A stretch of 64,000 nt of DNA from the NCBI RefSeq assembly GCF_001647085.1, contig NZ_CP015520.1, positions 1,446,219-1,510,218 of the forward strand, read 5' to 3'. The notes beneath the pieces were generated by a model. The model was not told where the DNA came from. It made no database searches and saw only the letters and a program-made list of their open reading frames with translations. This document shows, in pieces, positions 18,946-20,796 of the stretch. The position numbers and the translations under genes are program-made. Position 1 is the first letter of the stretch; every line of letters starts with the position of its first letter. Source of the DNA: Thermococcus piezophilus (GTDB lineage Archaea > Methanobacteriota_B > Thermococci > Thermococcales > Thermococcaceae).

Positions 18946-20172
18946 ATGAACGTGGAAGATCTCGTGGATAAGGTAGCCAGGGGAGAAATAAAGCTCCATC
19001 AGGTTGAGAAGTACACGGACGGCGACAAGAGACTCGCCACTGAAATAAGAAGGAATGCCCTCGAAAAGAGGCTTGGGATAAGCCTCGAGAATATAGGACA
19101 CTACTCCATTGACCCGAACCAGGTCATTGGAAGGAACATCGAGAACATGATAGGAGTTGTTCAGATTCCGATGGGAGTCGCGGGGCCGTTAAAGATCAAC
19201 GGAGAGTACGCCAAGGGAGAGTTCTACATCCCGCTCGCGACGACGGAAGGGGCACTGGTTGCCTCCGTGAACAGGGGCTGCTCTGCCTTGACGGAAGCTG
19301 GGGGAGTTAAGACGACCGTCGTAGGGGATAAAATGACCCGCGCGCCGCTCCTCAAGTGCCCTGACGCCAGGAGGGCGAGGGAAGTTGCTGAGTGGGTGAA
19401 GGCTAACCTCGACTATCTCCAGGAGAAGGCAGTCTCAAAGGTAACAAGGCACGGAAAGCTCCGGGATGTTAAGCCCTTCATAGTGGGCAACAATCTCTAC
19501 CTCCGCTTCGAGTTTGAGACGGGAGATGCCATGGGCATGAACATGGTGACCATATCGAGCGAGGAAATAATGAAGGTCCTTGAGGAGGAGTTTCCCGACG
19601 TTGGGTACCTAGCCCTATCCGGTAACCTCTGCGTTGATAAAAAGCCCAACGCCATGAACTTCATCAATGGCCGTGGAAAGACGGTCATAGCCGAGGCAAT
19701 AATCCCGCGCGAGATAGTCGAGAAGAAGCTCAAAACCACCCCCGAGCTTATCGCTGAGGTCAACTACCGCAAGAACCTTGTGGGTTCAGCCCAAGCTGGC
19801 TCCTACGGCTTCAACGCCCACTTCGCCAACATCGTTGGGGCCATATTCCTCGCCACTGGTCAGGACGAGGCGCAGATTACGGAAGGAGCTCATGGCATAA
19901 CTCTTGCAGAGGTTACACCAGAAGGCAACCTCTACATCAGCATAACAATGCCGAGTCTCGAGATAGGAACCGTCGGCGGAGGAACGAGGGTTCCAACTCA
20001 GAGGGAAGCGCTCAGCATAATGGGCGTCGCCGGCGGAGGTGACCCGCCGGGGACGAACGCCAAGAAGTTCGCAGAGATAATCGCCGGTGCAGTTCTCGCG
20101 GGCGAGCTCTCCTTGTTAGCGGCAATAGCGGCGAAGCACCTCGCCAAGGCTCACAAGGAGCTTGGTCGTTGA
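18946..20172 (+). CDS. hmgA: HMG-CoA reductase
   Basis: 408 residues, class I type. Motifs: ENMIGVVQIPMGVAGP (HMG-CoA binding), TTEGALVASVNRG (catalytic Glu), GDAMGMNMV (catalytic Asp region), the VDKKPNAMN lysine segment, TVGGGT, and a C-terminal AAIAAKHLAKAH with the catalytic His. It reduces HMG-CoA to mevalonate with NADPH, the committed step to archaeal ether-lipid isoprenoids. ATG 18946 has GGAGGTG six bases upstream. It follows the MinD-like gene closely and is followed by the C/D box sRNA. Confidence 0.96.
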   Translation: MNVEDLVDKVARGEIKLHQVEKYTDGDKRLATEIRRNALEKRLGISLENIGHYSIDPNQVIGRNIENMIGVVQIPMGVAGPLKINGEYAKGEFYIPLATTEGALVASVNRGCSALTEAGGVKTTVVGDKMTRAPLLKCPDARRAREVAEWVKANLDYLQEKAVSKVTRHGKLRDVKPFIVGNNLYLRFEFETGDAMGMNMVTISSEEIMKVLEEEFPDVGYLALSGNLCVDKKPNAMNFINGRGKTVIAEAIIPREIVEKKLKTTPELIAEVNYRKNLVGSAQAGSYGFNAHFANIVGAIFLATGQDEAQITEGAHGITLAEVTPEGNLYISITMPSLEIGTVGGGTRVPTQREALSIMGVAGGGDPPGTNAKKFAEIIAGAVLAGELSLLAAIAAKHLAKAHKELGR

Positions 20173-20221
20173 GCCTCTTTCCCTTCTTACTTGACGCTTA
20201 AAAATCCTCGAAGAAATGTGT

Positions 20222-20285
20222 TCTAGGGATGATGACCATTTCCCTCACTCTGACGAGTGATGAGGAGCCGATGCTCTGACCTATC
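20222..20285 (+). ncRNA. C/D box guide sRNA (candidate)
   Basis: All four boxes are present in order with archaeal spacing: C ATGATGA (20229-20235), 14-base guide, D' CTGA (20250-20253), 3-base gap, C' GTGATGA (20257-20263), 12-base guide, D CTGA (20276-20279). TAGG before C and CCTA after D can form the closing stem. Such RNAs guide 2'-O-methylation by fibrillarin-Nop5-L7Ae, at the target base paired with the fifth guide base before D or D'. The D' guide can pair with GUGAGGGAAA, which I recall as a conserved 23S rRNA stretch. A TATA-like CTTAAAAAT lies near 20203. It sits between hmgA and the convergent hypothetical pseudogene. Confidence 0.85.
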
Positions 20286-20796
20286 TTCTTTTCCTTTTGT
20301 AGCCCTTCCTCCGGCCCTCTATCGTTCCGGAGATGAGAAGGATAAGGGGCAGGTAGTTGGAGACCTTTTCGAGTTCTTCGTTTCTGTATCCGAGATAACT
20401 CATGAGGAAGAAGCTTCCCCATAATAGTCTCTGGAGAAGCCACGATATTCTGTCGAAGCTCCACTTTCCATTAAATTTCTCGTCTATGATTTTATTGAAA
20501 ACTACCTCAAGGCCCTTTCACTTTCCTACTTCATACTCGTAGGCGAGCGTGGGCTTTTCTATCCACTTGAACTCCTTATCCGTCAGGTAGGACCATCTGC
20601 TAACTCCGTTGCTTAACTTGATTACATATATTTTCTTGGACTCTTTGAGGAGTCTCCTCGTGTTTTCTAGCAGGGTGAAGTCATTAGGATTCACGAGCAG
20701 GAGGTAGCTTTCCAAATCTTCCTCAAATCTCTTTGCGCGGACGCTTATTGGTTCGTCCGTCAGTTTGTAGAGGTAGTAGATGATGAACTTTCCCAT
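20281..20796 (-). pseudogene. Conserved-looking hypothetical protein with in-frame TGA
   Basis: The first 92 codons (MGKFIIYYLYKLTDEPISVR, ending LAYEYEVGK) stop at TGA 20518-20520. The same frame then continues for 79 codons without interruption (starting KGLEVVFNKIIDEKFNG, with two hydrophobic stretches and a basic tail GYKRKRR) to TAG at 20281-20283. No usable start codon lies near the beginning of the second part, so the likeliest reading is one 171-residue protein cut by a nonsense change. TGA as selenocysteine is unlikely, since Thermococcales are not known to use it. The function is unknown. The 3' end just touches the sRNA on the other strand. Confidence 0.55.

Follow-up and report, generated by a model that had tools for sequence, protein, structure and literature searches.

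Downstream of hmgA, Thermococcus piezophilus carries a real, conserved and ordinary member of the known archaeal class of C/D box small RNAs (sRNAs). Judged from its two guides, it is almost certainly a double-guide RNA that would direct two 2'-O-methylations in 23S rRNA. The gene lies on the forward strand of the 64,000-nt stretch of DNA that was analyzed, hereafter called the window (assembly GCF_001647085.1, contig NZ_CP015520.1, positions 1,446,219 to 1,510,218), within a genome of 1.93 Mb that forms a single contig. An initial annotation of the window, made from the sequence alone, had proposed an unannotated C/D box sRNA at this place. That identity is upheld by an Rfam family match, by boxes and guides kept in 48 copies, by concerted changes in box C'/D' and by two guides that can both pair with the organism's own 23S rRNA.

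Box anatomy and family membership

Boxes C (RUGAUGA), D' (CUGA), C' (RUGAUGA) and D (CUGA) follow one another in order and at guide-length spacing. The guides of 14 and 12 bases, the 3-base D'-C' gap and the TAGG/CCTA closing stem can all be read directly from the letters, as the initial annotation had claimed (Table 1). It had also judged a chance origin to be very unlikely, and the shuffling controls agree: a search of both strands of the window met the strict four-box pattern a single time, and none of 200 dinucleotide shuffles of the window contains it. A looser box pattern has one occurrence in the window and one in all 200 shuffles combined.

Table 1 Features of the C/D box sRNA and its presumed promoter, numbered from the first base of the window
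Feature	Position	Strand	Remarks
TATA-like element CTTAAAAAT	20197-20205	+	32 bases upstream of box C; presumed own promoter
C/D box sRNA, stem to stem	20224-20283	+	RF00095 match, strict box pattern
Closing stem, 5' strand TAGG	20224-20227	+	pairs with CCTA at 20280-20283; one unpaired base, then box C
Box C ATGATGA	20229-20235	+	read from sequence
D' guide CCATTTCCCTCACT, 14 nt	20236-20249	+	bases 20239-20248 can pair with own 23S 495-504
Box D' CTGA	20250-20253	+	read from sequence
D'-C' spacer CGA	20254-20256	+	3 bases
Box C' GTGATGA	20257-20263	+	read from sequence
D guide GGAGCCGATGCT, 12 nt	20264-20275	+	can pair with own 23S 442-453
Box D CTGA	20276-20279	+	read from sequence
Closing stem, 3' strand CCTA	20280-20283	+	overlaps stop codon (20281-20283) of 40-aa antisense remnant

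An Rfam search of the segment, proposed beforehand as a check, returned family RF00095 (snoPyro_CD) at 20225-20282, with all 58 model positions covered. The match scores 46.3 bits (gathering score, 45) and is the sole Rfam match in the window to reach its gathering score; that the score is barely above the cut-off was counted against the double-guide reading. Because the RNA belongs to a described family, it is also less remarkable than it had first been rated. Sixteen matches to RF00095 at E ≤0.001 in the T. piezophilus genome indicate that the C/D class is in use there, and a fibrillarin gene is present (PF01269, 333.9 bits).

By its sequence, the RNA has what is needed for a C/D k-turn with a closing stem and for a C'/D' k-loop with a short spacer. 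When the sRNA was folded alone, other helices were preferred (z of -1.08 and -1.95); a free guide RNA is expected to need L7Ae for its fold.

Predicted targets of the two guides

One 23S and one 16S gene were found in the genome. Both guides were compared with the rRNAs, turned to their own strand, and with 30 of the 44 tRNA matches; 23S positions take the start of the RF02540 match as base 1. Under the N+5 rule, the methylated base is the one paired five bases upstream of box D or D'. The alignment of the guides to the organism's own rRNAs and tRNAs, suggested together with the initial annotation, placed both guides in 23S rRNA, each complementary next to its box, and the shuffle controls support the D guide.

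The D target, which the initial annotation could not place, is by complementarity 23S 442-453, making the RNA a putative double guide. Eleven Watson-Crick pairs and one G-U pair would form there, and U446 is the predicted methylation site. The whole-guide score of 11.25 was reached by none of 300 shuffled guides and the 11-base run by 13 of 5,000.

For the D' guide, the annotation had named the stretch GUGAGGGAAA as the 23S target. The stretch is indeed present in the organism's own 23S rRNA, at 495-504, where 10 consecutive Watson-Crick pairs can form. Methylation on the A of GUGAG, as first proposed, agrees with the N+5 rule, which predicts A498. Taken alone, the D' site is not beyond chance: its 10-base run was reached by 276 of 5,000 shuffled guides. 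Over the whole guide length, the 23S site scores 6 and two other places in rRNA score 6.5, a value reached by all 300 shuffled guides; the best whole-length match (9.25) lies in flanking DNA about 1.2 kb upstream of the 16S gene, outside the rRNA. What gives the D' match weight is its distance of 52 bases from the D site, together with the evolutionary retention of the pairing end of the guide. In 46 of 48 copies the guide ends in the same 11 bases, among them all ten that pair; its beginning is variable in both sequence and length.

The ease with which shuffled guides reach the D' run, together with a whole-length site that does not stand out, would suit a C/D sRNA in which the D guide alone guides methylation and the D' match is incidental or a mere anchoring contact. 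Such an RNA is improbable, however, given the contrast between the constant end of the D' guide and its variable beginning, the short distance between the two 23S sites and the concerted changes in box C'/D' described below. Considerably less probable again is that the D guide targets, instead of 23S rRNA or in addition to it, the tRNA encoded between the 16S and 23S genes (L118). This tRNA offers nine Watson-Crick and three G-U pairs and, with a score of 9.75, the second-best site among the rRNAs and the 30 of 44 tRNA matches. The site is nevertheless weaker than the one in 23S rRNA (9.75 versus 11.25) and needs three G-U pairs, and the partner D' guide points to 23S rRNA near the D site.

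The double-guide reading favors two positions in what we take to be domain I of 23S rRNA. Both target sites are identical in all 30 of the 23S loci read (of 39 genomes matched); in G022, a single base in the interval separating the sites is different. When aligned with the Escherichia coli 23S rRNA, A498 corresponds approximately to A466 and U446 approximately to U416, the latter being uncertain because of alignment gaps there.

By analogy with its class, the RNA would either have a promoter of its own or be processed out of a longer transcript. L7Ae would impose a k-turn on box C/D and a k-loop on box C'/D', after which Nop5 and fibrillarin would bind. With the D guide paired to 23S 442-453 and the D' guide to 495-504, fibrillarin would then methylate the 2'-OH of U446 and A498. 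The simultaneous hold on both sites may also help this part of the rRNA to fold.

Conservation, linked box changes and loss among relatives

A blastn search with the 64 bases gave a match at E ≤0.01 in 33 of the 61 genomes of the genus, and the strict pattern was found in 31 of them. A sequence model made from 24 copies was run against 115 genomes of the class and reached E ≤0.001 in 53, in some through weak partial matches alone. Intact copies that could be parsed number 48 and come from 47 of the 115 genomes, Pyrococcus-like ones included, G024 having two. This set (loci L088, L105, L204-L233 and L279-L294) excludes the degenerate copies of G033, G030 and G076 as well as weak partial matches (E of 8.8e-6 and worse). 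Lack of box conservation at this locus in close relatives had been named as a refuting observation; the nearest relatives, G068, G067 and G063, all keep it just past hmgA.

The boxes and pairing bases are nearly fixed, and the flanks and neighbors change between copies. Box C reads ATGATGA in 47 of the 48 copies and ATGACGA in the remaining one, box D is CTGA in all 48, and box D' is CTGA in 34 and CCGA in 14. The D' guide has 14 bases in 23 copies, 15 in 20 and 16 in 5. Its D counterpart ends in T (38 copies), A (9) or C (1); its first 11 letters were fixed by the parse, so their constancy here is by construction. A model search in which the D guide was left free returned 51 matches at E <1e-8, namely the 48 copies and three degenerate ones. 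The D'-C' spacer measures 3 bases in all 32 copies for which 0 to 9 were allowed, and 21 different spacer sequences occur among the 48 copies, where the parse required 3 bases. A closing stem of at least 2 bp (G-U allowed) is present in 47 of 48, compared with 4 bp here.

Upstream of the RNA, a TATA-like word occurs between -50 and -22 relative to box C in 36 of the 47 copies whose flank is long enough; most of these words begin at -30 to -33. A control band of the same size (-120 to -92) contains one in a single copy of the 47. A transcript start near the closing stem would fit this distance.

Two positions in the internal box pair change together. Position 2 of box D' and position 5 of box C' are T/T in 33 copies, C/C in 10, C/G in 4 and T/A in 1, and no other combination is seen among the 48. 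None of 10,000 random dealings of the C' letters avoided other combinations, in a control that ignores kinship. On an hmgA tree with 31 rows, the pair changed at least seven times. Three independent pairs fall on supported branches (five on all branches), and all three changed in concert (sign test, P = 0.25), a test that cannot reach significance with only three supported pairs. The terminal C/D pair, for comparison, is T/T in 47 copies and T/C in one.

The pair that follows the two G·A pairs is designated 3b·3n in the text available from PMC4382518, and its mapping onto the box positions is our own. According to the same text, C at 3b without G at 3n permits k-turn folding in metal ions. It is conceivable, if doubtful, that one orthologous RNA switched its C'/D' 3b·3n pair more than once and always in concert, and that the C·C lineages may fold C'/D' without L7Ae.

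Several genomes do without the RNA. An hmgA tree was built for 46 of the 60 genomes that have hmgA. Of its rows, 15 are without an intact copy, among them G033 with its ruined one, and this amounts to four changes on the tree. The 23S target sites are unchanged in the ten RNA-less genomes whose 23S was read. Because several Thermococcus genomes lack the RNA and keep these sites, the two predicted methyl marks cannot be indispensable. A search for a replacement RNA carrying the D' guide (pattern TGATGA, 3-10 bases, TTCCCTCAC; G000 and G011 as positive controls) found none in 18 RNA-less genomes; only G007 matched the pattern, without boxes D', C' and D after it.

Copies with damaged boxes were observed in G033 (L153), G030 (L296) and G076 (L295). 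Such degenerate copies suggest that the guide RNA was lost in several lineages. The one in G033 (G033:C85:4163-4213) lies about 675 bases past hmgA, and its ruined boxes point to loss of the RNA there.

Genomic context and relation to known guide RNAs

In the window, hmgA ends at 20172 and the RNA follows 51 bases past it. Its hmgA has its best relatives, as far as contigs with names are concerned, in Thermococcus and in Thermococcaceae MAGs. The gene on the opposite strand (20281-20796, minus strand) is split into two pieces of 92 and 40 aa, and its remnants extend into the closing stem, as far as 20281. G068, the nearest relative (98% hmgA identity), has the antisense frame in a single piece of 172 aa. 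The location between hmgA and a decayed gene was described correctly from the start. No Pfam match was found for the 92-aa piece or for the 172-aa frame of G068.

Among the loci listed, the RNA lies just past hmgA in G068, G067, G063 and G079, and about 670 to 760 bases past it in many other genomes. In G005, G003, G028 and the second copy of G024, it comes after a different gene. Often it faces an antisense frame of the same kind, followed by a gene that we take to be gatE. Exceptions among these loci are G067 and G063, with a frame on the other strand there, and G066, where gatE follows the RNA directly. Eight of the nine Pyrococcus-like (g12) loci showed neither an hmgA nor a gatE motif within about 2 kb.

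Two further arrangements were observed. Of the two intact copies in G024 (L235 and L252), one has the hmgA surroundings and the other, as in G005, adjoins a 355-aa antisense frame. At L280 1816-1942 and L282 1825-1950 (minus strand), the RNA stands head to head with Rfam snoR9 (RF00065), at distances of 57 and 49 bases. In these genomes, which we take to be P. abyssi- and P. horikoshii-like, the two RNAs may share a promoter region.

In 27 of the 48 copies, the core from box C to box D contains the end of an antisense frame of 80 aa or more, with the common tail V(R/S)ASAPxHxSE; 11 more copies have such a frame ending at most 30 bases before the RNA. The overlapping frames measure 166 to 195 aa in 19 Thermococcus copies (among L204-L233, L088 and L105) and 639 to 677 aa in eight Pyrococcus-like ones (among L280-L288), and the residues before the shared tail differ in the latter eight. 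Two proteins of different size can share a tail in this way because only one antisense frame meets its stop in the core, so that any gene reading in acquires it. The idea that the conserved stretch is merely the 3' end of an antisense protein gene, with no RNA gene at all, draws on this overlap but was rejected: the 21 copies without it, that of the window included, also keep boxes and guides, the frames differ in length and in the residues before the tail, and, by the codons, the T-to-C change in box C' replaces H by R whereas its partner change in D' is synonymous, which leaves the linkage unexplained by coding. For the window itself, this idea is excluded, as the frame stops at 20281-20283, before box D. 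Archaeal sRNAs that overlap gene ends have been described (PMC7994747), and the available part of PMC4247193 reports 16 sRNAs antisense to 3' ends in T. kodakarensis.

The putative double-guide RNA resembles RF00095 in its full-length match and in the scores of the copies in three Pyrococcus-like genomes, which range from 54.9 (L280 and L288) to 55.4 (L282); we take the L288 genome to be P. yayanosii-like. The T. kodakarensis-like copy (L247) falls below the family cut-off. RF00095 differs in matching many C/D RNAs with apparently different guides, judging by the different places of the 16 genomic matches, so the family name does not identify this guide pair.

In PMC4644070, archaeal double guides are characterized by two targets no more than 100 bases apart, and a nine-pair criterion is mentioned. 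As portrayed in the accessible parts of PMC4644070 and PMC7994747, they share with the present RNA 23S targets less than 100 bases apart, the N+5 geometry, a short D'-C' spacer and, in many species, an overlap with a neighboring gene end. The present RNA differs from them in its predicted targets in domain I, a large part of which is low in targets (PMC4644070), and in the TATA-like word of most copies, described in PMC7994747 as an arrangement of the minority.

In T. kodakarensis, 54 C/D RNAs were verified by dRNA-seq (PMC4247193) and 61 putative C/D sRNAs are counted in PMC9014305. The RF00095 match of G011 at 1371729 has the same start as sR46 in Table 1 of PMC9014305, and for this reason G011 was identified with T. 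kodakarensis. The G011 copy of the RNA, at 795506-795566, is absent from that table, which covers circular RNAs. In P. abyssi, 59 C/D guide RNA genes are known (PMC3124441); since the C/D RNAs of this species have been catalogued, the orthologue is very probably already listed among them. RiboMeth-seq data for P. furiosus have been deposited (PMC7758197). In the article texts searched, we found no published number for the RNA and no report of its two sites.

The analysis assigns a probable double guide to 23S domain I and predicts its methylation sites in T. piezophilus to the base, as U446 and A498. The linked C'/D' changes are comparative evidence for a functional internal box pair and, if the suggested switching of the 3b·3n pair and the L7Ae-independent folding of C·C lineages are true, would supply natural variants for testing the asymmetric assembly of the guide particle. 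Finally, the genomes without the RNA but with the same rRNA sites are a natural test of the role of the two predicted methyl groups at high temperature.
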